In this document: positions 14,659-45,000 of the stretch, piece after piece
How positions within the stretch are numbered: position 1 is the first letter of the stretch
Layout: each line of letters begins with the position of its first letter
NCBI GenBank assembly: GCA_000310025.1
Contig: FN649749.1
Span: forward strand, 1,170,497 to 1,229,135
Origin: Ectocarpus siliculosus
Lineage: Eukaryota > Sar > Phaeophyceae > Ectocarpales > Ectocarpaceae
Direction of reading: 5' to 3'
DNA: 58,639 nt
The notes under the pieces: generated by a model
Databases searched by the model: none
What the model was told of the DNA's origin: nothing
The model's input: only the letters and a program-made list of their open reading frames with translations
Program-made: the position numbers and the translations under genes

Positions 14659-17600
14659 CTATTGCAACATAACGAATGCGGCGGCCATGGCCCTAGCTGC
14701 GAAGAGGCCGTCCCCCGTTCGGTTCTGCCTTTCCCGGGCCCGGATCTCGCTCGCCATCGTGTTGCTCGTCGGCCCGCTGCTTCTGCTCTGGCCCCCAAGG
14801 GCACGGTTTGTGTTGCCGCCGCGAAGGCTAAGGCTTCTGAATGACCTGAGGCTGCCTTCTTTGTTGTTGGCAGCTCGTTCCCCAATCGGTGTTGGTCTTC
14901 TCGCTCTCTGCCGAGGAGTGCCCCGAGACCCCTTCCGTCGATCGCGATGGATGACAACGCTGGCGGTAGCGTTGCTTCTCCGTCGTGTGACAATTTCGGC
15001 AGCGCCTTCCTCAGCCGGGTTTGTCCTAGCCAGGCTCTCGCGCGATTTGGCGTTGCTGTCTCCGACTATCACGTCGTTTTCTGGAGGATTTTTGCCTTTC
15101 CTCCTTTGGCGGCTAGCGGACCGGGACAGCTGCCTGCACGTGTGGAACAGACCATGACCGACGTCGAAAGAATCATCATAAGCCCTTCCAGCACTAGCGC
15201 TAACCGTGGACTCCACGGCAGACTTTTTCGTAGTCAGCACCGTATCGTCACCGAGGCTAGCGTCATCGCTTCCCGAGAGAGGTGCCCTAAAACGGCTCAA
15301 ATGTCCGGAGAGTTCTAGACCTCCTTTTCTTCTGCTGCAAATTTGGTCGTTCTTGGCCACCGAAAACAATGGAGCAGCATCCACCACACCAAAGCCGAAG
15401 GCTGTGTCTCCGCTACTGCGCGACGGTTGTTCTGTGGCCGCACATGAGGGTGTAGTGATTCTGGTTTCGATTTCACCCCCGTGCGGGGAGGGTACCGAAA
15501 ACCGCGACGGGGGCGAGCGTGCATCTCCAACAAGCTGAAAGCTGTCTTGCTCTCTTGTCGCAGTCGAATCGCGCCCTCCGGAGCCGCAAAGAAAACACGC
15601 CACGAGCTCATGCCGCTCGCAAGGGTGGTTGCTTGAGCCCCGGGCTCTGCGTATTCCATCGCCGTCGCCTACGCCCGGTACTCTGGTGTTGGTTACAGCC
15701 CCATCGCCGCCGCCGCCCCCGTCCCAATCTTTGCTGGTGGAGTATCTCAACACGGGAAGCGAATTCGACCGCCCAAGGACACCTTGGCGGGCAAAGCCTT
15801 CCCGCCCCCCACCCAAGGTCGGCGATTCCCCCCCGCCTAATGCCGTAGGGGACTTCCGACCATACGACACGGTCGGCGAGAGCATCTTGCACAAGATGCA
15901 GTTGGAAAGAAGATGTCGGTCACAGGGACCGCCGCTGCTACTGGTTCGCGCTGGTGCCCGTTTGCCGGATGTCACATGCGTGGGGACTGGATTTCGTTGG
16001 GGAGGCTTCCAGGTACTTGTGTTGTTGTAATCGCTGTCACTGCCGTTATCCGCTCCGGCAAACATATTCCTAGACGGGCTCACAACGGATTGTGCCGCAG
16101 ATAATGGGTGCGGGCCTTTTCGGAATGTGTTGCTGCTGTCAACGTCCGGCATGATGGTGTTGGAAAACGAAGCTGCAGCAGTGGCCAACGACTTTGACGC
16201 CGTCGGTAGCACGGACCCGAGACACGAGCCGGGCGGCCCATCTCCGAGAAAGCTACTCGTACGACTACCGCAGAGCTTGCACCCGACAATACCGTGCCGC
16301 TCACAGTCGCTCCGTCCACGACTACCACCGTTCCCACTACCGCCCCTTTCTTGGACGTTTGCGGCGTCGACTGGTGCCGGAACGTCCGTGCCCGCAGCTG
16401 CTGGCGACGGTGTAGACGACGCCAACGACGCCACAATTGAAGCCTCCGTGGTAGATAGCCTTGGATTCGTACGTGTTGATGGCCTGGGTCCTGCTCCCGT
16501 GGACGACCCAGAGGTTAGTGTGTTCCAAATCACGTTCGTGTCGGTGGTGCTCGGAGAGGGCACCTCGGCCTCCAGCTTCGAGGCATTTCCCGTCTTTGAG
16601 TCCGCCGCCGCTCGCGCCGAAAATGGCTCTCGTCGTAGCGATGACGGAGGGGTTCCATGCGCGCAGTTCTTCCCTTGCGCGGGGTGTTCGACTGGCTCCC
16701 TCGCCGGCGGCCGAAGCAAGGACTTATTTTCTGATCCCGCTAGACTTGAGCACGGGGACACCGAGGGCGTATTTTTTTCTCGAGGCGGATGCTCATTATG
16801 GCGGTCTCTGCCTTCACAGCAACGATCCTTCTCCGTGTTACCGTTGAAGCCCTCGGGCGCCACCGCGCGTCCGACTCCGCTGGCGCCGGGTGCAACGTAC
16901 GCTCCGTGAGCCCTATCCCCCGTGCTCGGGTCGCTCAACGCCGTCAACGGAACCACTTTCGGGCTCGGGGCGAGATGTTGGATGGGGGACACAGCACGGT
17001 TGCGACGACTGCAAGCGGTATTGGTACCATCGAAATCTCCACTTCGCTTTTGCGTGTGTTGTGGTTTCTCACCAGCACGACTGGTTCCCGCCGTCGCTGT
17101 TGACGTCTCCAGGCTCTTGCACCTGGCCTTCCAGGTCTCTAGCTCGCGCAGGAGCTCGTCTTCCCTGCAAGAAAACCTCTCAATCAACGCCGCCGTGGCT
17201 AGCCGCTTGTCGTCGACGTGCCTCCTCCCGCCCCCCCCCGCTGTTGTCCCCGCCACCGTCGAAACCGCGCACGAGCGCTTCTTATTAACCCTCGCCAACC
17301 CGCCGGAAGAAACAGGGGAACGGGGAGAACAGGAAACGACCGGCTTGTCGCCGGCTTTCGTCAAGAAGGAACCATCAACATGTCTATGTGGCGCTTTACG
17401 CCGTTCTGTTCCCTTCGGCAAGGCTTGCGACGCTTCAACTCGACCGTCTGGGGACTTGCCATGGCGCAGATGCTTGCTTCGATTGCGAGCTGAAGCGGCA
17501 ACCGCCTCAGCGACGGCGGCGGCAGCAGTAGCGGTGGCCGCGGCGGCAGCGGCGGCGGTGGCTATCCGGCCACGGACCACGAGGTCTCCACCCCGTCTTG

Positions 17601-20600
17601 CGTTCAGGAGCGCTTTGGTTTTGGCTTGATGCCCCTCCAGATCATCGCTCGTTTTCTCGTTTGCTGCGGTGGTGCTGACAGGCGTGAACCCTGATCGCCG
17701 CCGCCGACTGTGACTTTCTGTCGCAGCAACCGGCGCCGCCTGCACACGTTTCCCTCTCAGCAACGAAACCTCGCTCCTCGACAGCTGTCTCTGGGACGTC
17801 GACAAGGACGACCCTGTCAACGGCCCCGATGGGCCAAGAGCTATGTGCCCATCACGTTGCCGGCTCTCATCGTCAAGAGTCTCCCGTTTAGGCTCAGATC
17901 TCGTCACCGCTTCCATTTTCAGAACCGACGACACAACGTTGACGGCCGAATTTCTTCGCCTTCGGTCGCCCTCGTCGCTAACGTAGGTGCCACCAACTCC
18001 TTGTGGTTCTGGTCTAGCCGCGTCGCTGCCGTCACGTCCGGAAGCGGAAACTCGGCCACCATTCTCGTCGCGGGCCACAACATCTCTACCATGGGCAACG
18101 TCAACCATCTGCGCTGCCAGACCCAAGGAGAGAGCCTGCTTCGCCACGGTCTTTTGTACGGCCGGAGGGGTGGGTTCGCGCCTGTGGTCGGGCTTGCCGT
18201 CGTACTCCCGGACAGCATCATCGTCCGTCCCATCTGCGCACCCGTCGTCGTCGTGGTTCTCTCCGTCGCCGCCCGGGCAGGGAGGGGGGCGGCGAGGCGT
18301 CTCCACCACACCAGGCGACGGTCTTGCCATCCCCCACAGCTCCGGCAGTTGCTTACCCTCATCTGGGCCGTTATGAGGGTGGGAAGGCGCGGGTGAGCAG
18401 GAAGCGACAGCGGCGGCCGTTTCCGCCTCCGCTAGCCGTCGACGCAGTGTTGTAATCTGCCGCCTCGCTCTTTCCAGGAGAAGGGCGTCGCTGACCACTT
18501 CGTTCACGCGCTGCCTCGAAACGACCCTCATGCAGCGCGCCGCAAAGTTCAGCGTACTGATGCTCTCGTCCTGCGCAAAGCAATCGTGGGAGGGAAGGGG
18601 AAGGGTTGAGTCAAGATTCTTGAGGCTCGTCTCCGAACGGCCGTGCACCCATGTTGTCCAGCGCGACAGTCCTGGCTGCCGACCCGACAGTGCCTGACCC
18701 AGCTCAACGGCGTTGTGTGTTCCCAATTTTCCAGATGCTTCGCTCAATGGACAGGGCAAATTCGAAACAATGAAGGCTCGTTTTCGCGTGATGCCATCGT
18801 CGTACAGGGCGTCGGAAAATCTCTTTCCGCGTATGGTTTTGATCTTTTAGGTTCATCGGCAACAAGCGTTTTGAACTTGCGTTGGGCGACCACAGCGGCT
18901 GGTTTTCTTTATCTTGATCGTGACCTACGCATGTCGTGGACGTGCTTCGTTTTTGGTGAGATGAAAAGCTCAACAAGGTTTCACAACGACTACAACGTTC
19001 TTCGCCATTCCTATTTACCTGGGCGTCGATTGAAGGGCGGATCGTGGCAATGACGACCGTTTTTCCTCCCACAAGCGAGTCCTGGAGAAGCCTGGCAGAG
19101 TTGGCGATGGAGAGGAAAGGTGGGAGTATGGATCTAACAAAGATCCCAGACCAACCCCATAGCTGCGTTTTCTTCTTCTTGTAGGTCAGCGTTCAAGCTC
19201 ACTCCGGCCCCATTGGAAAAAAAAACAGAACAGCAGCAACAATAGCAACGAAAATCACACCTGTGGGTCTGACAGGGGTATGAACGAACGTTACAAGCAG
19301 TGAACTACATTCGCCTCTAACCTTCATGTTCTTCCCCTTCTCAGACATTCCAAAGCTGATGTAAGCGTGTGGTAAAGAAATTCCACGGTGCAGGTGTAGG
19401 CGGAGCGCATGGATCTGTCCTTCCGAACGAGATCCTTCGGGGGTATCCTGCCAGGATACGAGGTCAACACCTGTGGAATGATGCCCCCATTGCTGTCTGA
19501 TACCCCCCTAAACCTTGTGACACTCCAGGCGCAGCTCGTTGCTGGCAGACGCATATTGCTCGTTTACAAAGAAGCCCTCGACACTCCAGTCATAAGTTTG
19601 CTTCTGGCACTCCCCACCTTTCACAACCCAAAGCATTGAACAGACCTCCCCCCTCACTCACCTCGTCAAAGGGCTATCCCGGAAGGGGACGTGCGTTCTT
19701 CGTGCCTCTCCCAGGCACGCAATGCAGTTCGAAAGAGCGCTCAAGCTCGAGTTGATCCTCGATCGCTCCCTCTCCTGAGCCTTCCAGCTGCTTTCGCCTT
19801 GGGGTTGCGATGGCACCCCTTGCGGCCCCAACCCGCCTTGCAACTGCGGTCCGCGTTGCGGTTGGGATCCGCTCGTCTCTTTGCGTCCTCCCGCCACCCC
19901 TGTCTCCGTCCCTGCCCCCCCCTTTTCACTGCCCGCTAGATCCACTAGGCTTAGCTTGGCTCGCGTTGTCACGACAGCGTTGCCGGAGTCCGTTTCGGAC
20001 CGGTGTTCCGGCATCATCATCACGCCAGTGCTATGGTCCCTTCGGCTGTCGCTGCCGTGAGGGCTACTGGTGTGGTCGTGCTTGCCGTGGGCAATTTCGC
20101 CGACAGTGCCATCGCCGTCTCCGATGCTGATTTCCCCGGGATGTAGTAAGACTGTCCTGATCTGGTCTGTTGTGGCTTGAGACTCGTCGGCGGCTACCAC
20201 ACCAACTTCGCTGCTATCTCCCCCACTTGATAGGTGTGGGGCAGGACCCACCCCAGGTTCAGCTGTAGATCGAGTGCTGGTGATGGTGAACTGGACAATG
20301 GTGTGGCTGCGACTGCTGTGTGTGTTCATCTGCATCGAAAGGGGAGACCGAATGTAGTTCAGGAGCAATTTGGTATTGAAAGCGCAAATAGGCGTTCCCA
20401 GGCAAAGGTAAACAGCACAGTCGAATACCGGTCGCTTCTTGCCTTTTTTCCCATCCGTGACGTGTGCAACCATGTCACGTGATTTGAATGGCCACTACAA
20501 AAATATACGTGTTTTACTGCCCGTGAAATGTTTCCCGGCTATTGTGACATGGACGCAGACCTCAGAGCATGCGGAGGAAACTGCAATATGGGAAGACGCA

Positions 20601-23600
20601 TTCAACGGGTATAGTGTACGGCACAAAGCGTCTTGCTCGGCGTGCAGGTTGCGGCATGCACTCTGTCAAACCAACACATGCGGTTCAACATAGCACCTAC
20701 AACACCTCGTCTCCCGTATCATCCCCCACGCACCTCGGTGGATCTGACTCGACGGTTTCGATCTCCCTGCCGGAGGAGCTCCATGACCTGTTCGACGTTT
20801 TTCACCGGGTGAACCGACAGCCCCACGACCCGGCTACCACTTGAGCTACACTCACGGGGCAACGAAGAAGAACCGTAGCTCCTTATCCCCGCTGCTGCTG
20901 TAGAGTTTGCGTTGCTTTTCCTCTCAGCGTCGTGCACCCCCCCGCTATCGCTTTCCCCGACGTGGGCACGGAGGCGCGGCTTCGTCGCCGTAGCCGGCCT
21001 GGCTGCGGTGGCGTGGACCCGGAGTGGCCTCTGTTCGTTGGAGTCCTCGGGCGAAAGGAGGTCGTAAACACGGCCATTGTACACCTGGTAGAAGGGAATG
21101 ATAGGTAGTTCATAATTCGTCGCCATGATATCACGTCGTGCGCTCGGCTAGCGGTTTCTTCCCTAGCCCCCCCTGCTGCGGGTGCCTGTTTTTTTCCGTC
21201 ACAAACAAACCAATGATGATCATGCCTGGTGTTCTCATGCTGGAGAGCGCGCGGGGTAGGGGGTCAGATGTTTATTCGCTCTGCCAGTCTCCCGCGCAGC
21301 CACGAGGAAAACACCAGTGGAAATTCATCAGAGAATATCAATACAACCCGGGTATATATAGGCTAGCAATGTCTTATCCCCCGTGATAGACTGCGCTCGA
21401 AGGCGCACACTTGCCTGCATGTACGAGCACTCCACGTCACATCTGCTGGTTGCCGTTGTCGCTCCCGCCATGCACGCCTCTCGAGCAGAGTTCGAAGGCC
21501 CCTCAACCCCACCGTGCTCCCCCTCTCTTCCGGCAGCAGCGCCAGGCGATTCCGAGCTGTCGGGTGGGATCACCCGTTCTCCGGGATACACTGATGGCGA
21601 TGAATTGTTTTCCTTAGAGCTTCGGGTACGAGGGATGTAGACCGTAGGTTCGTCGAGCGGCCAGTGTGCCGCGGATGGCACCTGTGGTAGAGGCAGGCCA
21701 TCTGAGCAGCTCGATCGACTGCTGCTGGCGCTGTGGCTCGTACCCCCAGCAAACGTGATTGGATCAGAGGTCGAGCTGCCACCGCCACTGCTACTCGTAG
21801 AGCGCGTCTGCTGTTCACTCGTAGAACCACACGGGCTAGAAGGAGAGGCTGTGCCTCGCAAATTGGGTTTGGCCTTGCCGGGGCCGTAGATGCCTGGTGC
21901 TCGATGCAGCGAGCCTTGTTGTCCACCGCCTGGTGTGGGGGAACCTACTTCTTCTGCACCGCCTTGCCTCACGAGCCTAAAAATATCTTTCACAGCGCGC
22001 GGAATCACGCCTGCCCTTTCTCCCCTTGGGACCTCTCCTGTGTTGCTATTGTTGCTTTCCGCCGAGTTTCTTCCCTCCAACGCAGCCTTTTTTGCCGCTC
22101 CGTGTTCTTTCGTCCTTGTTCCAGGAGATGCCAGTCCGCCCAAGGTGTTCCCGTTCGCTGTCAACGACGCTGGCCCTGCGTCGTATGTTTCTTGCTTCGG
22201 CATATCTCCGACCATGGTGTGTGTCTTCCCGGAGCCAGTCTGGCCGTACGCGAAAACACAGGCGTTCACGCCTGACCAAATACAAAGAAAAAAAGCGAAC
22301 AGGTGAAAACAAAAGCACTACTGTTTCATAGTTAAATTCAACGTGCTTGCCGACGCCGCCAGTGCTATCGTAACTGTCAGTGCTTTTGGATTGCGGTGAT
22401 TAGGGGGGAAGTGGGGAACTGTTCGCATTTGCTGGAGACCAATAATGTCGTTTGACAAGGAAACAGCACTATCCAGCTTCCTTTTCACATTCTCTGTTGC
22501 TCAACGTAGGATGGGATTTGAGTCAAAGAGTGTACTGCATTACAAAAGCCAAGAATCCAAATTAATTTGGAAGATGAACATGGGACACAAACGATAGGAA
22601 ACGTTGGTTTACCTGCGAAGGGTAAGCGTACGCATGCTTTGACTTGATCGTACACGTCACCCTGCCCTGCGCTCTCCCCCAGGACGCGATCAAAAGATAC
22701 CTCCAACTCTTTCCAGCTCTCACGGAGACGGCCCTGGTCTAGCTTGTCCTTGCCACCCTTGACTGGTGAAGGCACAACACGCAATGTTCTTCCGTCTGGG
22801 AGTACTGTGGTCGTCCTGCAAAGAGATATATTGGATTGCAGCAGGATAAGAGTACAGGACACCAGGTGTCGTGGTTTACCGATAATCGAATACTTTGCGG
22901 GCAATCCGGTACTACACAATGTTGTAGTCGACCACGACTCAACGAGCTCATATATGTATGGTGTTGAGACACGAAGAATTAGTGTCGTAGAGGGGTCCAT
23001 CGCTCGCGGCCACCGCCCTAGCAATAGAAAACCGTCGTATGTGGAGTGCAGAGCGACAACAGCGTGTCATGTGTTTGAGTGTTTGGTTTTCAAGGAGATG
23101 GTGAGACGAGAAGAAAGAGTTGAACGTGTCGTTGCAGCTGCATAGTCGACAGTCGTTTTTATGCCGAAAATATCTGAGCTAGGTTTATCCGAAGAATACA
23201 TGGTGTGGCGAAGCTCAACTTGCAAGTACCGATCCTGTACCAAGAACTGCAGTATTTGCCGTATGGTTCTCCGAAGATCCAAACCACCATGACGACGTTG
23301 TTCGGCAATCAATGATTCCTTGATTAGACGATACCTTGCGGCCGTTTGTTTGATAGGGCGAATCCTGACGATGACTTGAATCCTTCCATTCAAGTGCAAC
23401 GTCGGTGGAGATGCCTTGCTTAAGGCGGGTGAAGCTGCCGTGCTCGTGGCACCACCCCAGCGGTTTTCCGGCCGATATGTTGTTGCTGCGGAACACCGTT
23501 GTAATTGCTTCGCGTTGCGCAGTTGTTCGTCGGTCGGATTTTTCGACGTCCCCCGCCTATACTGAACGGCGTCACTATTATAACCGGAGATTTCGCCATC

Positions 23601-23630
23601 ACTCCGTGCTGCGTTGACGATCATGCACAT
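14659..23630 (-). CDS. Kinesin heavy-chain protein with expanded motor and Cys/His modules in the tail
   Basis: Seven exons join with matching phases: 23630-23335, 22815-22613, 22271-21415, 21084-20734, 20329-19662, 19091-19019 and 18570-14659, giving 2,119 residues. An in-frame stop precedes the ATG. Motor motifs in order: [10 protein letters not shown] (about residue 83), [14 protein letters not shown] (P-loop, about 174), [17 protein letters not shown] (switch I, about 571), [10 protein letters not shown] (switch II, about 693), then [34 protein letters not shown] and [13 protein letters not shown]. Long Ser/Gly/Pro-rich insertions lie between these blocks, so the motor spans about 750 residues instead of the usual 330-350. 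A short coiled coil follows ([21 protein letters not shown]). The disordered tail of about 1,250 residues carries three C-x2-H-x4-C-x2-C modules. The motor is N-terminal, so plus-end-directed movement on microtubules is expected. The family is uncertain, perhaps ungrouped/ARK-like. Intron 3 uses a GC donor. Confidence 0.9.
15586..16305 (-). other. Three C-x2-H-x4-C-x2-C modules in the kinesin tail
   Basis: Coding segments at 16305-16270 ([12 protein letters not shown]), 15924-15889 ([12 protein letters not shown]) and 15621-15586 ([12 protein letters not shown]) fall near residues 1571, 1698 and 1799. The spacing of four metal-ligand residues is identical in all three, each in a Ser/Pro/Gly-rich setting. 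They are probably small zinc-binding peptides or protein-docking motifs; the function is inferred only from the repetition. Confidence 0.75.
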
Positions 23631-24158
23631 AAGGGTTCACACATTATTGCCGTTGTGCACTGCCTGCCTCTTCTCACTCGTATCCCGCCACCCGCGCGGC
23701 GGGAACTGTACCGGTTCGTCCGGTCAAAAGTTTCGTGCGGCGCAATTAACGCCGGATCTTCGAGTGATCTCCCATCCCCATCTCACGCTCATTGCGTGTG
23801 TTCCCTTTTCTTGCGCATTCTACCAAATCACCGGCCGTGAACGTGTACTCAACATGCCTCCCGCCCTAGTCTCCCAGCCAACGGGCCTGTCTCGACACCG
23901 CAAAGCTGAGATTGTTCTTGCTCTTCACGTCAACGGCGTTCAATATGAGCATGGCAAAAGCAAGTATACTTCCGAACTAATCTTGCCGCATGTGCTGTTG
24001 CAGCTTAGGCGCCATCGTCCCCATCAAGTCATGTATGTATGCAATGCTCCGAGAAAGGAGACTAGGACTCATCAACTGGACTTCGTGTTGTCGTCGTGCA
24101 GATGATGTGCAACTGCTTCTTTCGACCATAAAATCGATATTAACACAGCTACAGAGTT
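23631..24158. promoter_or_regulatory. Divergent intergenic region between kinesin and B-box/SAM gene
   Basis: 528 bp lie between the two outward-reading start codons (23630 minus, 24159 plus). Both core promoters are expected here. No TATA box or known operator was recognised, and short reading frames here carry no domain. Confidence 0.4.
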
Positions 24159-27100
24159 ATGGCACCAATAACTCCCCCCGCGCAGCTCAAACCGCCGTGG
24201 ATGGAACACGACCAACTCCGCAAGCTCAACGACAACCCTGCTCTTGAACGGAACTTGTGTGGTTGCCTTCTGCGCGTGCGCAGTATGCGAGTTTTGTGAA
24301 TGTGGGCCGGCCACGATGCATTGCCCTGACGATGTGTGCGGCTTCATGTGCGACAGCTGCGACGCATACCGGCACCAGAGCGGAGGCAACAAGACCATCG
24401 AGTACACTGACCACGAACGTGCTAAGGTGAGCACAAACAAGACTCCATAGGCGTTCTGCCTATGGAAGCGTCTATGAGCATATGCGCGTACGCTGCGTAT
24501 TCACCTTCTAATGATATGCCTCACCCTTAAAGTGGTCCTGTTTTCGTCATCGGGGTGTTACCGCAGCATGCACCAACAACAAACTTTACCCATGACCCTG
24601 ACTCCGTGGCCGCACGAGAGCATATATATTCAGTTTGTTGGTAGAGGCACAAGGTATCAAGCATGATTCTACTCCATTGTGGGCGCAGCTTTCACTTCAC
24701 TCGACGATTTTGAATTCCTAGCAACGGGATGTTCGTGGCAATACATTCTCCTCTGAGCCAGTAGCATCAAAAAGGTTGAACACCTTCGTATGTACATACA
24801 TACTTTTGTAGATGCATCAAACAAAGTATTTTGTGCCTCACACTCTCTTCAGCGGTACGAAACTGACAAGAATATGGCGGGCTTGCCCCGTCGTCTTTGC
24901 TGGGTTCACAAGAATCATTCTACAGTTGCGTCTTTGCATATCATGGAACAAAATATTTGGTGTATTCAAGAGTCTCCTGTTTGCATTGTTTTCTTGTTCT
25001 TGTCCAAAAGGTGTCGACTCTCACCATCGCGGCGGCGGCCTTCAGGGTCAAAGGCTTCATGCGCTTCGTGTACCACAGGGGAGCAATGAGGCAGGAAATC
25101 CGGAGACAATACAGTCGCTTTTACGATAGCCGGTCCAGAAGACACTACTACAGTTTTCACAGAACTGGAGAGGTACACCTGGCGCTTCCCCCATGTGTTT
25201 GCCTGGAATGTATGGGTCGTAGGCATGGTTTTTCTACCCTTGCCTTCGATAGTTCTTCCTCAATCCTATCGGTAGACCGGTCGTGTGCTTGCACATGTCT
25301 CTTCAGGCACGAGTCGTAGGGCACCCACATTGTTACCCAGGGGGTGATGTTAGCCTGAACATGGTGCTTCCGTCGTTCGTCCGAAAATCCTCCCTCGTTC
25401 ACAACCTTTGTCGAGGCACGACAGTCTGGCAAGTTTGAACAGAAGGCTGCCACAGTAGTTTCACTATTATACACCTATCTCGTCAGTGGAAGCATTTGTG
25501 TGTGTGCTTGTTTGCTTTCGTCGCGTTTACGCTTAGCGCCAGTCTGCACGTTTTGGTTCGTGTTGGACGCACCAGCCGGGGTCACACAAGAAGCAGGCAA
25601 ACAGGTTTCATTTTTTCTCCACCTTCCCTCCCGCAGTACTTGCCTTCGTGAGAACGATTCAGCACTCTCCCACCCCTTTTGGGCGAGACGTCAAGACAAC
25701 GTAGTAGGATTGCGGTTCTACGAGACTACGTGCCCTTAGCGTTCCAAAAACGTGAACAAAAAGATGGTACTACCAAAGCGTCGCTGTCACAAGAACAGAA
25801 TAATGGTGACCCTGCAGGAGAAAGAGCCGTAGCACGCTAGCCTTCCGTATCCATCCACACGTGCCAACTAAGTGTTGGCTGAACAAAAAAAAAACAAGGT
25901 CACCTGGAGCAAGCCGCGCCTGCTGGGAAAGGAAGAGCTCCGCCCCTTTCTCACCGTCAACGAGGCGGCCTTCAAGATGCAGCAGCTGCACCGCAACTGG
26001 AAGGCTAGAGAGATAGCGAGGGACGCCATGCGTGTGGCCTGGAACAGGGTGTACTCCCCGCAGGTACGATTGACTGCTCCCCCCCCCCCCCTCTCTTCAC
26101 TATCAGCCCGTTAGGAGCAGTAGCTACGGCTGGACTAGATGTGTGGTATCCACAAAGCTGAGACACAGAGTTCGTCATGTTTTCTAAAAGAAAATATCGT
26201 GTGTTTACTGCGTGGGGTAGGTCCTCTCTCTCGCTGCAGGCGAACTCTTGCCTCACACGTCTCTGCCTGCTCTGACGACATGGGAGAGGGGGGGCTCTGA
26301 TCCAGATGATACAGCATTGAGTTGCTCATAGGTGTTTCCGACAAAGGGATACTAGATACTAGCAGCAACGAAAAAAAATCGTTAGGAGGTTGGAGGGACC
26401 CCTTCGATACGTGTCACTTCAATTTGGGGGCAAGGGTGGTCCTTGAAACCGTGACACTCCATCGAGGCGAGATGTTCAAGGCCAGGCGCCCAATCGCTAG
26501 CCAGGGCAGTAGAGTTGACGTGTTCGTCACTTTCGGCTGCCGTTGCTATTGCCATGTACTCGTGCCTCTGTACAGGAGCGGCGGTTTTTCTTTTTCTACA
26601 AGGGGGAGAGCCCCCTCGTACTGCCCACGACGGCGAGCTGGACGCAGCCCTGCCGGTGAGTGTGGCAATAGAAGTGAATCAGTGCTGCTGGTGTATAAGC
26701 TTTGCCGAATAGAATAGGCATGTTCGACAATTCACATCTCGGAGGCTCGTCTTCCGGAGCTAGAGGTCGCGTCGAGGCCGCTCGTTTGATGGCACAGCGG
26801 GAATAACGCCTCGCGGTGACATCGCCGAAAACCCCACCGGCGCTCGGCCTTGTCGTTTCCGAGGGTGTTTCGAGCGATGTGAAGGGGGAGGAATGCTCTA
26901 TACATCCTTGGCGCGTAAAAACGCCTCCAGGAACTTCCCGGGGCTCGAGAGACCATGCCTCCCCAGCCGTTACTTTGGCGAACAACGGGAGCGGAAGGGT
27001 CCCCCGCCAGGGCCCCGGGAGCCGCGTTGGTGGCAGAAATATGGATCACTTCCATTTTTTTCTCTATGAAAATATACAAGATCTTGTGCCACGTTTTTTT

Positions 27101-30100
27101 CGACATTTTGTTTTGTTGTATCGTTTGTTCGTAACCACGGAATGAGTCCGCGTCAGTCAGTTTGACCAGTACAGGTATATCAGAAGGTACTGAACGGAAC
27201 CCGGAAGGGTATTTTTTTGAAGGTACTGAGCGGAGACCGGAACGGTTTTAACGTGTGAATACAATCACTGTCACAACGACAAACACAACATCATTTGTTC
27301 GACAGTTCGATCGGAGGCATCTGGGTGTGGCGTCCAGTGCTCTCGGAGCACGTGGCGGCCATGAGGATCCAGAACCTGTGGAGGAATTTCGCGGGCCGCA
27401 GGGATCTGAGGGAACGAGTGCGACAGGTATACCTTCGTACCGGTGGAAAACAGACGATACGTTACCGAACATGAGACGATGGAAATTATGCGTGCAGCAC
27501 CTGTAAGGCAGAAAGCTTCACAGCCCGTGTGCTTCGGATTTCTTCAGGTTCTGTCGTAGCCCTTGTATGACGAGAAATATCATCATCGTAATACGCCGAG
27601 AATAGTTTGGGGCTTTCTGCTACACTTTCAAAATGATCCGTGCCCCCAGACGTAAAACCGTTAATCTTAGGAGGCCCATATTTTCCCGCCCTCTCGCTGT
27701 AGCTCCAAACCAGCCAATACAACGCAAACCGAATATAAATATCGACGAAACATATCGTTGGAAACTGTCTTAGGCTTGAATGAGATAATCATTTCCCTCG
27801 GTACATGTACCATCAAGCTCCAACGCCACGATCGCCACTGAATGTTGTCGCAGATGTACTCTATGGAGCACGACCCCATCACCGGAGCGGAGTGCTACCG
27901 CAACCTCAAGACCGGGGAAGTTTCGGATCGAAAGCCTTTGAGCCTAGGGTCGGAGCGGTGGGACCAGGACGACATGATGTTGTGGACCGTGGAGGAGGTT
28001 TGTGCGTTTTTGAAATTTGGACCGACCGCGCCAGAAGGCTGGGCGACGAAAAACACGTCAGACTTTATTGCCGAATTCCAAGCGCGAACACGCTCTCGAG
28101 CCATAGAGTAATACCGGCAGGGGGGACGCAAGGGTTAACGTCCTACTTCTACAGCGAGGTTTGACAGTACCGTATACGACACAAGATAACACACCCCCTG
28201 GGCCAATTTTCAAAGCTCGATTTATCAACGGCAGAAAGAATCGCAGCGCCGAAAAGTACGGCGCTGCAGCTGTCTGGTCGAGCGCTCTCCGAAAATGTAT
28301 CGTTTCGTCTACGCATCCTCTTCGTCGTGGAGTAGTGGAGCTTTGAAAATCGGTCCAGGGAGTGTGCTATCTTGTGCCGTATTCGGTAAAGTTCACGCCC
28401 CATGCTGGTTGTGTACTGTTTTTTCTGTAGCCTTCTTCTCCAGCAACCCCTGCTGCTCGTGATTGTCGTCACCAAATGGCGAGGTCTTGAGAATCTCATC
28501 CCTGAACAATGTGTAGCTATAATACCTATCGTGTTCTGCTGGTTGCTTCTTTAGGTGGTCATGTTCATCAGGCGCTGTGGGCTAAAGCGCTTCGCCCCGA
28601 AGATTCGGCACTTTAACGTGGACGGTGCTCTGCTGATGACCTTCGACCCTGAGGACTTCCTTCTGCTGGGTCAGGCCGACTCGGTCAACGCGAAAAAGGT
28701 AAACATGCATACTTCGAAGTACGTCGTTTCGCAAAAAGGGTACTGTAGAGGATTTCCTTCTTTCAAGCCGAATCGGTCAAAACGAAAAAGGTACACCAGG
28801 TGTCTCGCAAGTTTTTAAACAATCATAAATACGAACACCGAATAAAGACTACCCGTTCGAGATAATGTACCACAGCCGAGGGCATGCATTGGAGTAGTTA
28901 TAGTGAGTGGAAGAAAAACACATGTTGTTCTTCTATTTCGGTAGATGGCGTTCCTTAGGCCGACCACGTCCACCCAAGCTATGAATCCAAGGCGGAAATC
29001 TGCTTTGGCTCAGTTCGCCGAAAGGATTGCGGTCATTTCGCTTGGCCCCCCTCGACTTATTTTCGACCTCGAGTCAGCAGCCTCGCCTTCAGTAAAGCGT
29101 ACGCGCGAATCTGTGCCAACTAAAGAGGTTGTCATTGGGATACGCTTTGCGACACTCCACTCACACAGCTTTGGCAGCTGCGTAGATACCACAAGGCGGT
29201 GGTCAATTTGGTTTTTGGTTCAAATAAGGTCACTACAAGGTTTTTTGACGCACAATCCACGCCGTTGAGAGCTACTCATTTTTTTTTCCTGCCCTTGGCA
29301 ATTGGTCAACCAAGAGGCTCCCAGCACGAAGAGCGAAGTGCGGCTCGAAGCTGCACTGGGTGGGGCCATGAAAGGAAACAGATTATGCTTGATGTTTACT
29401 GGTAGGCCCTCCACGACAACCAAACGGCCTAGGGGCCTTTCGGCCGGCGCGTCCCCCTGTCGGGGTGCGTGGCCCGCCCTGTTCCGGAAAACGATCGCAA
29501 CGCGTTGCCAAAAAGAAAAAACTCGGCGGTGTACCTAGCTATGGACACGCCCCCACCCTCTTCCCGTGAACTCACGCCCAACCTTCACGCTTGGAGCGGC
29601 GTCGGTTCTGTTCTGGGGTAAACCGCGAGACTCTGTTTGTGGACGTTGTGGTTCTCGGCGCAGATTCTGCTCAACATCGAGAGGAGACCGGCGTTCAGCG
29701 GCTACAACAAGAGGGCCAAGGACTTGCTTCGACGAGCGGCCCTCAGGCAGAGGCACTTGGAAGGGACGCAGGTAGGTGGGCGTGATTGTTGTGTTGGTCG
29801 AAGAGTAAAGGTGGTGCGACCGTGAACGCATTGATCGTTGATACTGAGGACAAGCACAAATCACTGGTACTGTGCGAGTGTTAAAACCTTGTCTAAAGCT
29901 TGTCGATTGCACCCTATTCCTATCAACTCCGGCTTCAACAACTCAACCGTGCCCCGGTCGAAACATAAGTGGTTCCCATGCACAAATCTGTTGTACCACA
30001 GTACACCCAAGTACGCTTGACGTGGGTAGGCCGAGAAGAAATCAAGGTGGCCTTCGCCCCCCGCCCACCACGCCGTCGTACGAAGTTCATGCACTCTTCC

Positions 30101-32433
30101 AGCATACTTGGATCATGAGAACAATGTGGCATTTTTCAATCCTTTCTTCTCGAAATAGAGTGGTGACATGTTTGTATTGTCGCACTTGTTTGTCGGAGTA
30201 TTGGTGTATTGTCAGAACCCCTTGCAGTCGCACCCCAGGGCTTCTTAGTCTGGCCCATGTTGGACAGTCTGGTGGTTCCTTCTGCTGCTACTGTTATTGT
30301 TCTTGTTGCTTTTGACAAGACACGCGTGCCAACCGCCCGCGCACCCGTTAGTTCTTGGCTAACCTGTCCCATCGGGGGGGGCATGTACGGGACAGGCCGA
30401 GAAAATCCAGCGATGGTGGCGCGAGATGATGAGGATAACTCTGCGGGAAATCTGGAAGAAAACGCAAAAGACGGCCAAAGCCATAGAGGAGCGAGAGCAG
30501 AAGAGAAAAGACAGCGAAATGTACGTCCTACTTTGAGTAAGAGCAGAGCTAGACCGATGTTGTTGTTGACTTTCTTACCAAATGGAGGACTTTTAAGACG
30601 TTCCGGTCGCGTCTCGTCGCCCTTACAAGTTAATGTGAAAAACACGATGAACGTGCGACAAAGCGTTTGCGGTGGAGCCTCTCTACTAGCAGTGGCGCAG
30701 GAAGTAACGTTTGTTCGCCTCGAAAATAAAAGATACGTGTCCAGTTGGAGCCCTGTACTCCCGCCTGTCTCACCCTCGCCCGCCTCTAGTGGCTAGCAAC
30801 TCACGAAGGCAGGCGGTCAATTGATTTGGCTCTTGACGTTCCTCGAGTTAGCCGCAGCGGCGAAAACCACCATGTTTTCAAGGAATCCCTGTCCCACATA
30901 CACAACAGTGAATACTACCGAGAGTCTCCCCTCCCACTCTCGTACGGTCGATTTTACGATCAAAACATTCAAGCACCGCGCCCGGGAACGTTTTTGGCCG
31001 GTGGAAAGCACTGATAGGGTTAATGGGGCACGAGTATTAGCAATAACCCTCTGTACAGGTTAGGCCTTCCACCCCACAATAATCAACAACGAATTATTCT
31101 TCGTTATTCTAAGCTGTCTCCCCCCGGTCCTTCCCCCATTCTTCTACCCTCTGGAATCATGCTGGGCGAAGTGAAACGCCCGTAGTATTGTGGTGTAATA
31201 TCTCCCGAGAAGAACAGATAGATGTAGACAAGAAGAATCGGGATTTTCCGGCGTTGAAGACGTTTGCACAGGATCTACCCCATACCCATCAACGACTTCA
31301 CCACTGCTTGCTATCCCCCCCCCCGTGAGCGCAACCCGGCGTGTGCCGTCCTGGCTTAGTGAGCCTGGTCCGGTGAGAACCCGGCGTGCTCCGTCCCGGC
31401 TTTGTAGGGATGCGAGGTCAATGGTCTAACGACTACTGCATGCACGACTATGAGTACCCCCCCCCCCCCCCACTCCTTTCGGCACGATAATGACCAACAA
31501 ACAAACTGTAATGAACATCAGCTGGTGGACAGAGAAGGTTCGAGATTACTCTGGCTTGGACGCCAGCGTGAAGCTTTACGGGCGAAGGTCGAACATCCTC
31601 GGTGTAAGGGGGTGGGGACGTTGGGATACCGTAGGCGATCAGTGGACGCCGACTCCAGAGGAAGTGGGGGCCCCACACAGGAGTCGCATCATGTACAGGT
31701 TTGTCATGTGTCTATACTTTTCGCGGTGTTTCGTCCTAATGTCCATCCCGGGCGCCAGTCGCCAGTCTACTGCGAACTCCGGTACAGTTAGCGCCCGCGT
31801 CTGTTCAAGAAACGTCGTTTTGGGGTCGAGGCTTAAATTTCTTTTTTTGGTCACCGCCGTCGAGCATTGGTCATTATATTGAGTTAAGTGTAGGATCCAC
31901 GACTGAGCCCTAATTTCTCAAAGGTTTGTTTCTTAATCGCGGGCGCTAACTGTTGTATGTGTGTTGACGCACCAGCCGTGGGTGAACGTGATAAATTTAT
32001 CGGATAGGACTCCGCACAGTAGCACAGACGTCGCCTAAACTGCGGTACAGACTTGTACCACCGACACGGGTTCTTTCAAGACCATCGGGGTTTGTCTAGA
32101 GCACTTCCGTGGGAAAAAAGCGACACGCGATGGGGACATATTCAATAAATGCAACATCTCAAACTTTCATCTACAACCAATTGGTGGGAGGCGTAATTTA
32201 GCACGATAAAGTTCTTCAACAAGGTTCTTCATGTGCCGTAAATGCTCTCTTCGTGAAGAATCATGCTCCCGTTTTGGTGCCCCTCCCCCCCCCCTGTTCC
32301 TCAACTCATATATATTCTCAGAGATGCTCCGGATGGAACCGCCGTCCCTGTCCATGCCGTCAAGGAGATGCAGTTCAACGAGGATCAAGCTAGGCGGCGA
32401 GCGAATCGAAGTGGGTTAGGGATTGCCATTTAG
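24159..32433 (+). CDS. B-box-like zinc finger / IQ / WW-like / SAM domain protein
   Basis: Eleven exons: 24159-24426, 25011-25172, 25899-26063, 26576-26655, 27306-27426, 27854-27997, 28555-28698, 29664-29771, 30411-30520, 31522-31698 and 32322-32433 (stop TAG); about 529 residues. Exons 2-11 are consistent in phase. Domains in order: B-box-like Cys/His cluster (VCEFCECG, MHC, CGFMCDSC, YRH); IQ-like helix (AAAAFRVKGFMRF); WW-like module split across exons 2/3 (YYSFHRTGE-VTWSKP); IQ-like (AAFKMQQLHRNWKAREI); WW-like (FFFFYKGES to TASWTQP); IQ (AAMRIQNLWRNFAGRR); WW-like (DPITGAECYRNLKTGE); SAM domain (WTVEEVVMFIRRCGLKRF to ILLNIERRP); basic coiled coil; C-terminal WGRWDTVGDQWTPTPEE. It is likely a calmodulin-binding scaffold. 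Exon 1 has one base too many: MAPITPPAQLKPPWMEH and the B-box are in different frames, changing near 24255-24290. An extra exon near 30856 could not be excluded. Confidence 0.75.
27130..27275 (+). repeat. Dispersed repeat (GAAGGTACTGA family), copy 1
   Basis: Shares TCCGCGTCAGT, GACCAGTA, AGAAGGTACTGA and GACCGGAACGGTT with 33895-34010, in the same order and orientation. In this copy the GAAGGTACTGA..CGGAA part is present twice (27185 and 27218). It lies in intron 4 of the B-box/SAM gene. Confidence 0.55.
28169..28387. mobile_element. MITE-like inverted-repeat element (family 1), intact copy
   Basis: A 219 bp element whose ends mirror each other over about 50 bp: ACCGTATACGACACAAGATA and TTTCAAAGCTCGATTT on the left, their inverted counterparts GAGCTTTGAAAATCGG and TATCTTGTGCCGTATTCGGT on the right. 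It lies in intron 6 of the B-box/SAM gene and has no coding capacity. Target duplication is not clear. Confidence 0.75.
31357..31471 (+). mobile_element. tRNA-like repeat, C-homopolymer family, copy 2
   Basis: Runs from GTGAGCCTGGTCCGGTGAGA through CCGGCTTTGTAGGGATGCGA and GGTCAATGGTCTAACGACTA to a run of about 15 C. On the opposite strand an A-box-like TAGTCGTTAGACCA and a B-box-like GGTTCTCACC stand about 54 bp apart, like a tRNA with a longer variable region. It lies in intron 9 of the B-box/SAM gene. Confidence 0.65.
31784..31953. mobile_element. MITE-like element (family 2), copy in intron 10 of the B-box/SAM gene
   Basis: Perfect 16-bp terminal inverted repeats: ACAGTTAGCGCCCGCG and CGCGGGCGCTAACTGT. 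Inside, AAAGGTTTGTTTCTTAAT is the inverted counterpart of the interior of the copy at 11021. A short non-autonomous DNA element. Confidence 0.75.
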
Positions 32434-33356
32434 TAGAGATGGGATCAGATATGCATGGGCAGGACAGAGATGGAGAGTGCGGGAAAAGGAGAAGAATTTT
32501 CTCGCTCGAGCCGAGGTGCACCTGCCTGCTGTTAGTTGATGCCGAGATTACCGCCAAAACTGCTCGATGTGAGGGCACGTCGGCTCCACGATTTCGCCAA
32601 TTTTGCTTGAGACACGTTTGTTTGGCATCGTAACCCTCTCGATCGCTATTGACTGTTTGAGGACATAGCTACAGCGTGGTTGGAAGGGATAGGGGGGATG
32701 TCCAGGAATCTACCTCTGTTAAAACGTTAAAACAGTGGTGTAGCATATGGAGGGTTAGGGTTAGGGCATCGGTGCTGGACGTTTTATACGAAAAAGAACG
32801 GTTGGCTTGGGCCGTAAATAGCGCCCGTCGGCGGACTCAGGCTCATTTTCTCACCATGGACGAGTTTGGCTTATCACGAGTAGAACGGAGACAAGACGAT
32901 AAAGCCGGGATTGCATAGGACGATAGGTTAGAGCAAGGCACACCGCAGTCTCCTAGCTATCGGGGGTTGAGGTGGCGGCCAAACTAGAAAAAATGAGGAT
33001 ACAAGATGACCCGACGATGTTGTTGAATACTTGGGTCTTCCCGGCCGATCGAAAGCTCCACAAAAAAGTGGAAAGAGCGAGAAGCGGTTCAACCGGCAAA
33101 CATGGCGGGGAGAGGGTAGACTACGACGTGTAGCAGTAGAGAGAAAAATACCGAAGACTCCTAGGCAACCCCTGGGAGTTCGTTCAATAGGCTTCGTGAA
33201 ACCGTCTAGCTTCGTCCTATTCCATACCCCGATCACGTCGGAGGCGTTTTCGTACCCGCGAGGGAAAAGAGGGGTTGGGGGGCTTTTCTGGAAGGAGCCG
33301 AACACTGGTTCACCATGGGGCTTATCGTTGAGAGAGACCAGACTGACTTGGCGTCG

Positions 33357-33480
33357 ACAATAGATGGGATGAGCGTCAGGCGAAGCACTCGACCACGACA
33401 AAAGATGGGATGAGTGGCCGGCAAATCTGTCCAACACGACAACACATGGGATGAGTGGCAGGCAAACCTGTAGACCACAA
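33357..33480 (+). repeat. Minisatellite of about 49-bp units
   Basis: Three adjoining units share GATGGGATGAG, followed by a GGCAGGCAAAC-like part and a CGACCACGACAA-like part. Units differ by a few substitutions. Confidence 0.65.
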
Positions 33481-42000: not shown

Positions 42001-45000
42001 GCTTCCGCTTCTGGCATAGTGGATAGCGCTAGTTCGTGTGTACACAGAGGGAAGAGAGTGCTGAACTCTTCTCGCATTCCTCGCATCAAAAATCGAAGGC
42101 AAAGTACCGCAGGAGGGCAGGGTAGAGAGGGGCTCTTCTGTGTGACCACGGGTTGGAATAAACGGCACTAGTGCTGTGAGCGCTGATTTGAAGTGAAGAC
42201 AAAAAAAAAAAAAAATCGTCGACAACTATGCCGCGGAAAAAATCACTCCATCCCAAACCATACATCGTTGAGAACCATTTCCCATGAAAAACAAAGGGCA
42301 CAAGAACAGAGCACGCTCCCGTTCGTGTAGAGGGGTTCTGGCCTCGCTCACCTTGAACCGAGAGATCACCTCCTCCACGGCACTCGAGGATCCGTCCTGC
42401 GAAATCACCACCGGGATGGCGAACGATGCCCCCCTCGAACTCCCGGGGTGGTACTCGGCCACCGCGTTCAGCGTCCTCTCGAGGTACTCGGGCCTGCTCC
42501 GTAATGAGGGGGGTTGTTGGCGTTGTTAGGGCATTCAGCGATCAGGTTTCATACACGACGATCTCAGGGGAAGCGCCTGACAAGGGTTCGAGATAAGACT
42601 TCGGGTTAGGCCTGGCGTCGGGAGGTAGGAAGGTGGTGAACGCTGGCTTGAAAATCTGATGCCGCCGTCGAGCTCATGGCTGATAAATTTCATCACAACC
42701 GCAGTAAAACGACACCTACACCGTTACAACAGGGGCTGTGGAAGGAGGTGTAGCGAGATTACGCTAGCGGTGTCGGGGGTAACGATGGAGAAACCCGCGA
42801 GCGCACCGGTGTGCGATCCATCGGTTTCGAAAGACAGACTGCTCCGCAACCAAAGAGGGTTGCGAACAAACCGACGACCCACACGTAGCAAGGAAAGCTC
42901 TCGGCGAGATAGTTCTTTCCAGGTCCACCGTTTTCGGCATTGGCAGCAGTTTCTTAGTTGTTGAGAAATCGAGCTTAAAACAAAACACGGTTAAACGCCT
43001 GTGTTTCCGCCTGCGCATGTTACGACAAACGACGAGTCAGTTCGTTGATGTGCCGTTTGGCAAAATAGCAAGTACCACGGACAACGCAGTCAATTTCTGT
43101 CAGGCTGCGGATGCGAAAAGTTCGAAGGCGGGTAGTTGTCGGAATGAGACAAACACGCAAGGGACAAGTAGCCATAACGCCACCGCGACGATACCACCAC
43201 CTAACGCCCCCCCCCCCCCCCCCCCCCCCCCTAAAAAAAAAAACCTAACTCACGCCCCTTTTTTATTTTATAACCTCAACCCNNNNNNNNNNNNNNNNNN
43301 NNNNNNNNNNNNNNNNNNNNNNNNNNNNNNNNNNNNNNNNNNNNNNNNNNNNNNNNNNNNNNNNNNNNNNNNNNNNNNNNNNCTGTTCCCCAGGGGGGGG
43401 GGGGGGGGGGGGGTGGGGGGGTTTCCCCGGGGGGGGGGGGGGGGGTCAGGGGGGGAAACCCGGGGGGGGGCGGGGGGGGGGTTCCTTTGGTTTTAGAAAG
43501 GGGGGGGGTTCCCCCCCCAAGGGGGGGGGGGGAAAAACGGGGGGCCCCCCTGTTAGAAGGGAAGTTTTTGGGGGGAATTTTTTTTCCGGGGCCCCCTTTT
43601 TGGGGTTGGGGGGGGGTTTTTTTGGGGGGGGGAAAGGGGGGTTAAAAAAAAACGGGGTTTAACCCGGTGTTTTTCCCGGGGGGGGTTTTCCCCAAAAGGG
43701 GGGGTTTTTTGGGGGTGGGCCTTTGGGCAAAAAGGGGGTGCCCCGGGGGCGGGGGGGTTTTTTTTTGCGGGGGGGGGGGGGGAAAATTTTGGGGGGGGGG
43801 GTTTTGGGGGTGGGGAAAACCCCGGGGGGGGGGGGGGGGCTTTTCGCCCCGGGGGGGGTTCCCCCCCCTAGGGCCCCCCCCCCCCCCCCCCCTCCCACCA
43901 ACAAACAACAACTCACTCACGCGCTTGGTGATGTGCGAGCCTGGTCCTGTGAGAACCCGACATGCTCCGCCCCGGCTTTGTAGGGATGCGAGGTCAACGG
44001 TCTAACGACTACGGCATGCACGGCTACACCCCCCCCCCAACCAAACAAACAACAACTCCTCGCCCTCTTTACACCTGTTTGCGCAGATTATCAGCACCAC
44101 GGCGTCGGGCCCAAGCATCGGCGTCCTCGCAACCCCCCCCTCCTCCTCGTCCTCCTCGTCCCTCTGCCGCTGCTGCCGCTGCGCCAGCCTCGACAGCTGG
44201 CCTGGCTCCCACCTCGCCTGCCCGTCCCCCGTTCCGTCCTCATCGGCGTTGATGATCACCGGTCTTCTTCTACTCACGTCGTCCTCGCCACCAGCGGGGT
44301 CGGTGGAGAGCTGTAGTGTTGTTGGGAATGAGGAAACAGGTTGTTCTTATTGACAATGAGGAACAGCAGTTGTTGACAATGAGGAACGTTTTTTTCGCTG
44401 CTGGCACGGGGGAACAGTTGATGATGAGGAGGCCCATTTGCTAACGAGGAGCAGGTTTTCGTAATGCATTCTTGATATTGAGGCACATAGTGGTTTGCAC
44501 GCAAAAGCGAAGCACGAACACACGCCGGCACGCGGGCTTTTTGATGATCATCGTACCATCCACCTGCCGCCTCCTTGTAAAATTCCTGTGCGCGATCGAC
44601 CCAACCCACACAGCAGCCTTGAAAATCCGTTGTCGACAGGAACCAATCGCACATACCACCTCTTCTTATATTCTTGAGGTACCTGCACTACCTCATCGTT
44701 TCTTCTCCTCCTTTTCATTGTGTCCCTTCAGGTGTACCTGAGCTAACTCATTGTTCTGCTCCTCCTTCGTTATTTTCTTCACAGGTACGTGAACTCCCTA
44801 AATATCGTTCTTCTCCTCTTGACAGGCCACACCACAACCACCGCTCACCTCCGCACCCCACGACCCATCCCCGACATACGCATCGATGCCGAGCCCAAGC
44901 CCACCCATCCAGCCGCCCCTGATGTAATTGTTGCGGATGCTGTCCTCAGACGAAATGTCTGCTTGCTCAAACCTGTTCGTACGTGTGCGGGCGCATTCAA

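Follow-up and report, generated by a model that had tools for sequence, protein, structure and literature searches.

Proteins that combine a B-box finger with IQ motifs have already been described from stramenopiles. In the sections of PMC3498115 (2012) consulted here, the Ectocarpus siliculosus protein CBJ49059 carries zf-SNAP50_C, B-box, IQ and WW domains together with one short p25alpha domain, a second Ectocarpus protein, CBN75312, carries a B-box, IQ and likewise a single short p25alpha domain, and B-box with IQ is listed for Phytophthora proteins (e.g. P. infestans XP_002905233). The p25alpha domain is named after the microtubule-stabilising TPPP/p25, and the proteins with B-box and IQ, with or without WW, come from flagellated stramenopiles. 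Multidomain proteins bearing p25alpha are among the longer ones, at 900-1500 aa, and EF-hand proteins are said there to bind IQ independently of Ca2+. Neither a SAM domain nor a threefold unit is mentioned in those sections for the stramenopile TPPP-like proteins.

Here we describe a gene on the plus strand of a 58,639-nucleotide stretch of DNA (the window). As judged from its sequence, it is one protein-coding gene in the nucleus of an intron-rich eukaryote, with a predicted product of about 500-530 residues; its host is probably a stramenopile alga, as the initial annotation held and as the known relatives suggest. The likeness to the TPPP-like proteins described in those sections lies in the apparent union of a B-box finger and IQ motifs in one protein, and with CBJ49059 it extends to WW. 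The difference, comparing description with description, is that their proteins have a short p25alpha domain whereas this one has a SAM domain and a threefold IQ-WW unit. No p25alpha domain is listed for the 530-aa reading in Pfam at E up to 10. Among the titles and abstract openings listed from the open-access literature, none presents B-box, IQ, WW and SAM in one protein, which does not imply absence from print. The initial annotation knew of no characterised protein with this order of domains, a claim that is weakened by the B-box, IQ and WW set of Ectocarpus CBJ49059 as described in the consulted part of PMC3498115. With B-box, IQ and WW in a stramenopile already in print, what appears to be new here is the SAM domain and the IQ-WW triplication, without a detectable p25alpha domain. 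The domain set is thus unusual and not unprecedented: a known kind of system in a new arrangement.

A more distant likeness is to IQGAP, where WW and IQ motifs also lie within one scaffold. IQGAP has calponin-homology and RasGAP-like domains, and no CH or RasGAP domain is listed for the 530-aa reading (Pfam, E up to 10). Searches for homologues outside eukaryotes returned one stretch matching the pattern in IMG/VR (viral) and 37 in prokaryote genomes, none of which was confirmed.

The secure part of the gene consists of the following pieces.

24284 to 24426, plus strand: exon A, secure part; Cys/His finger, B-box/ZZ type
25011 to 25172, plus strand: exon B; putative IQ helix 1 and the first part of WW-like unit 1
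25899 to 26063, plus strand: exon C; last part of WW-like unit 1, putative IQ helix 2
26576 to 26655, plus strand: exon D; WW-like unit 2 for the most part, its first Trp sitting in exon C
27306 to 27426, plus strand: exon E; putative IQ helix 3 (Pfam IQ E 0.011, below cut-off)
27854 to 27997, plus strand: exon F; WW-like unit 3, with Asp in place of its second Trp, and the start of the SAM domain
28555 to 28698, plus strand: exon G; SAM core
29664 to 29771, plus strand: exon H; end of SAM, basic linker
30396 to 30520, plus strand: exon I; fourth IQ-like helix and a charged helix, without Pfam match
31522 to 31698, plus strand: exon J; without Pfam match
32322 to 32433, plus strand: exon K; carries the stop codon

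The initial annotation had proposed eleven exons with matching phases. This stands for exons B to K (10 exons, 25011-32433, plus strand), which share one frame through to the stop codon at 32431-32433, and all 10 introns between exons A and K, the A-B intron included, are GT-AG; it fails in exon 1, which is broken by a stop at 24297. GC content in the gene reading is 0.755 at the third codon position against 0.548 at the first and 0.456 at the second, and the third position is the GC-richest in 10 of the 11 exon pieces, exon K being the exception. A leave-one-out codon test ranks the in-frame reading first in 9/10 exons (all except exon D). A codon score trained on the tail exon of the neighbouring kinesin gene gave no discrimination (in-frame reading best in 3/11, one of these a tie) and was left out as support for the gene. 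Repeat or SAM alignments span five of the ten junctions. Splicing at B-C, C-D and E-F is supported because the repeat alignments pass through these points, each of which is exon-internal in another unit, whilst splicing at F-G and G-H is supported by a SAM_2 match (residues 304-363) that crosses both. Junctions A-B, D-E, H-I, I-J and J-K are without support from the repeat or SAM alignments. Taken together, the exon chain B-K, its splice signals and its codon bias indicate that the gene is real. A tRNA search found none, and an Rfam search at gathering thresholds gave no match.

The alternation of IQ and WW elements reflects the tandem triplication of one unit, roughly 52 residues long. Each IQ-WW unit has an IQ-type helix beginning Ala-Ala-(Phe/Met) and, some 25 residues further on, a WW-like module. 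Neither this threefold repeat nor the frame break in exon 1 was part of the initial annotation. The units lie as follows.

25035 to 25916, plus strand: IQ-WW unit 1, interrupted by the intron 25173-25898
25965 to 26650, plus strand: IQ-WW unit 2, interrupted by the intron 26064-26575
27355 to 27937, plus strand: IQ-WW unit 3, interrupted by the intron 27427-27853

Local alignment scores for unit pairs 1-2, 1-3 and 2-3 are 47, 69 and 48, and each was reached by 0 of 2000 shuffles. The alignment of units 1 and 3 is gapless and 52 residues long; that of units 2 and 3 covers 32 residues, mostly of the IQ part. Since intron positions differ among the units, a recent exon duplication is not apparent. 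The window's 1506 open stretches of at least 25 aa contain no further IQ-WW unit, the best other match having an E of 0.25.

A profile built from the three units was compared with the PDB at E up to 10 and retrieved 31 sequences, 28 of them WW-domain proteins by name and three of them beta-propeller proteins. TCERG1 sequences account for 15 of the 28, and the best match is PRPF40A (E 1.1e-4). The matches fall in the WW half of the unit and the IQ half drew nothing. As a control, one column-shuffled and realigned profile gave one unrelated match at E 1.3. PRPF40A and TCERG1, the best PDB relatives of the WW part, differ from this protein, which has an IQ-like helix ahead of each WW-like part; FF domains are a feature of PRPF40A and TCERG1, and none is listed here. 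The curated Pfam cut-off for WW (PF00397) is not reached, unit 1 scoring 13.3 bits against 26.9 and units 2 and 3 giving no match. As to the standard tryptophans, some of which the initial annotation recorded as lacking, unit 2 has both signature Trp residues, unit 1 has only the second and unit 3 has neither. Units 1 and 2 retain the Tyr/Phe cluster and the W..P pair. For unit 3, AF2 run on the single sequence of exon F predicts a helix and not a WW sheet (mean pLDDT 76.4, pTM 0.41), and this model found no fold match in the PDB. As sequence, the WW-like units are convincing, unit 3 least so, and a WW fold in that unit is doubtful.

The IQ part is fainter. In Pfam IQ (PF00612), helix 3 scores 15.9 bits against a curated cut-off of 20.3 and the other three helices give no match. 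A strict IQ pattern occurs twice, a number reached by 24 of 5000 shuffles. An IQ profile gave six weak PDB matches without a shuffled control, the best being a PPEF2 chain at E 0.14, and we regard these as only suggestive evidence for IQ. The domain assignments originally proposed largely hold, for WW in units 1 and 2 and for IQ weakly.

The SAM domain lies as follows.

27980 to 29681, plus strand: SAM domain, exons F-G-H; Pfam SAM_2, PDB matches to liprin and SAMHD1 SAM domains

As an isolated segment it matches SAM_2 (PF07647) at 23.5 bits (E 6.3e-5, cut-off 20.5), so the clear SAM domain seen initially is upheld; on the full reading the score is 19.3 bits, just under the cut-off, and SAM_1 (PF00536) stays below its own at 20.5 bits against 23. 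Searching the PDB with the segment at E up to 1 returned 28 sequences, among which liprins (best E 1.1e-5) and SAMHD1 stand out, with one unrelated entry, ribosomal uS19, at E 0.32. The SAM assignment is therefore supported by comparison of sequences. Liprin and SAMHD1 are alike in this domain, whereas their remaining domains are unrelated to those of this protein.

We propose, with a probability of about one half, that the gene encodes a self-associating modular scaffold that holds EF-hand proteins in an array on a cytoskeletal structure, which may be flagellar. The predicted order is a B-box/ZZ-like finger, three tandem IQ-WW units, SAM and a further IQ-like charged helix. In such a scaffold the IQ helices would take up EF-hand proteins of the calmodulin or centrin type as their light chains, each helix being trailed by a WW module at what appears to be an almost constant distance. 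The WW modules of units 1 and 2 could bind Pro-rich partners, and unit 3, its second Trp lost, may be structural. Self-association would be driven by the SAM domain and perhaps by the finger too, and the EF-hand proteins would thereby be arrayed on the cytoskeletal, possibly flagellar, structure. We suggest such a role because of the known relatives, one weak finger match (PCR5) and the neighbouring kinesin gene; the latter is compatible with a cytoskeletal role and does not prove it. The first suggestion, that the scaffold could be calcium-responsive, is inference only; EF-hand binding by IQ is Ca2+-independent in the account of PMC3498115 given above. Against the proposed scaffold stand the Pfam scores of IQ, WW and B-box below cut-off, the modest best E of the IQ profile (0.14), the failure of the IQ half of the unit profile to draw PDB matches, and the helix modelled for unit 3, which has no PDB fold match.

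A more elaborate version, which we consider unlikely, is that the IQ-WW unit may be a composite module of its own in which a light-chain helix is rigidly coupled to WW, so that EF-hand occupancy would gate the binding of partners; three such modules would then sit in a SAM-polymerised, stramenopile-specific scaffold. The gene provides an instance of a repeated IQ-WW unit, and with it the B-box/IQ/WW set known from Ectocarpus gains a SAM domain. If the arrangement is common to flagellated stramenopiles, it would represent a lineage-specific scaffold that carries calcium-sensor proteins on the cytoskeleton and a candidate for flagellar or apical structures; if it is not, this is a routine multidomain gene.

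The WW-like parts could instead be ligand-dead spacers, remnants within a long helical rod that binds light chains in the manner of a myosin neck or an axonemal IQ protein. The missing second Trp and the helical AF2 model of unit 3 agree with a rod, as do three of the six weak IQ-profile matches, namely myosin IC, FAP305 and dynein regulatory complex protein 11 (E 0.24-9.5). However, two others, SPC105 (KNL1 complex) and Gp6, look unrelated, units 1 and 2 keep the aromatic cluster and W..P, and the unit profile finds WW domains and not helical proteins. We consider a rod unlikely.

The Cys/His cluster at the N-terminal side, initially taken as a B-box-like finger, does resemble B-box and ZZ domains, but zf-B_box remains below its cut-off. 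An isolated finger piece scores 14.6 bits with zf-B_box (E 0.037, cut-off 24.1) and 15.6 bits with CEBP_ZZ (E 0.019, cut-off 29.8), and across readings the best score for the B-box (PF00643) is 15.3 bits against the curated 24.1. CEBP_ZZ is the top-scoring Pfam family for several finger readings, with a maximum of 21.6 bits against the same 29.8. In the PDB, phmmer with the finger piece finds Toxoplasma PCR5 (E 3.6e-4), CONSTANS-LIKE 2 (0.0028), the CPEB1 ZZ domain (0.0068) and MSS4 (0.31); with the whole 530-aa reading as query the corresponding values are 0.014 for PCR5, 0.093 for CPEB1 and 4.8 for CONSTANS-LIKE 2. Short finger queries match CONSTANS B-boxes at E 0.0014-0.018. A single-sequence AF2 model of the finger is uninformative (mean pLDDT 51.6). 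On these comparisons the finger is best called B-box/ZZ-like, resembling both B-boxes and CPEB ZZ domains.

The finger pattern is thus similar to those of the CPEB ZZ domain, the plant CONSTANS B-boxes and Toxoplasma PCR4-PCR5, and it might be read as the mark of a CPEB- or BBX-type regulator, in which the finger would act in RNA- or DNA-linked complexes and SAM would be an RNA-binding or corepressor module. The leading position of CEBP_ZZ in Pfam for several finger readings fits such a regulator, as does the presence of CONSTANS B-boxes among the best PDB matches. RRM is a feature of CPEB and CCT of CONSTANS, however, and neither these nor any other nucleic-acid domain is listed for the full reading (Pfam, E up to 10); moreover, the IQ-WW repeats are a misfit, and we regard a regulator of this type as improbable. 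As for the remaining match, the parts of PMC12819142 consulted place PCR4 and PCR5 at the core of the Toxoplasma preconoidal P2 ring and describe PCR5 as a likely structural part. According to the same parts PCR5 differs from this protein in having a GTPase-activating domain, which is not listed here, and the words B-box and zinc are absent from the paper's available text.

Upstream of the finger the reading frame breaks. The ATG at 24159 opens 46 codons that end in TGA at 24297-24299, which rules out exon 1 as one frame from this ATG. The finger cysteines lie in the frame one base later, and codon preference changes frame at about 24260-24300. Two candidate 5' pieces are as follows.

23990 to 24032, plus strand: candidate upstream first exon, ATG 23990, donor GTATGT at 24033; in-phase join to 24284
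24159 to 24258, plus strand: alternative 5' coding piece, frame mod 0, favoured here by codon score; frame not continued into the finger

The exon from ATG 23990 is one of five ATG/donor/acceptor combinations obtained with nine donor hexamers allowed. Among 704 GT sites its donor at 24033 ranks within the best 0.7%; the acceptor at 24283 is average, standing at the 44th percentile when compared with 648 AG sites. A candidate 25-nt intron at 24259-24283 has a poor donor (12th percentile). By reading, CEBP_ZZ scores best with this 25-nt intron (21.6 bits), followed by 19.8, 17.7 and 17.1 bits for the other joins at 24284, of which 17.7 belongs to the exon from ATG 23990. Readings without a join at 24284 score 12.6, 7.8 and 8.6 bits, a control with X residues 12.8, the finger alone 13.3 and an isolated 49-residue finger piece without any join 15.6. 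Because the scores vary with how the piece is cut, these differences between 5' readings are suggestive only. Phase also permits an upstream exon that begins at ATG 23854 and is spliced at 24185, but the codon score does not support it; a reading with the same open frame over the finger gives the 8.6 bits above. Upstream of the cysteines in that open frame, a CILP_8th match (14.2 of 27 bits, below cut-off) was put down to chance. The frame break could be explained by an upstream exon, by a 25-nt intron, or by a lesion or sequence error, and both the ATG 23990 exon and the ATG 24159 piece are unproven as the true 5' end.

Were the break a true lesion, the gene would be decaying, a pseudogene or a truncated copy. 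The stop ahead of the finger and the shift in codon preference are what such decay would leave; against it, the other exons are open, their introns are GT-AG, the GC3 bias is present in 10/11 pieces and a canonical, in-phase upstream exon exists. We give decay little credence. Lastly, TRIM proteins (B-box and coiled coil) and NEDD4 (WW) show that both module types serve the ubiquitin pathway, but no RING, HECT or U-box is listed for the full reading (Pfam, E up to 10), and an adaptor in that pathway, argued by analogy, seems very improbable.

The neighbouring kinesin gene (14659-23636, minus strand) is transcribed divergently from the putative scaffold gene and matches Pfam Kinesin (PF00225) at E 4.5e-56 with its pieces joined; its motor region apparently holds long low-complexity insertions. 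Its 5' open frame (23067-23636, minus strand) begins about 0.35-0.5 kb from the candidate starts of the scaffold gene. The C-terminal region, at about 15586-16305 on the minus strand, contains three copies of the motif C-x-R-H-x(4)-C-x-L-C, and the piece bearing them, starting one residue past the first Cys, has no Pfam match at E up to 0.1. Further off, at 7198-8175 on the plus strand, lies a DDE_1 transposase ORF (PF03184, E 6.2e-30) with a Tc5-type DNA-binding match below cut-off (18.1 of 22.2 bits). Homopolymer runs and undetermined bases at about 43200-43480 probably mark an assembly gap. Downstream of the scaffold gene lies a tandem array at 33355-33466, made of 2.7 copies of a 41-base unit.
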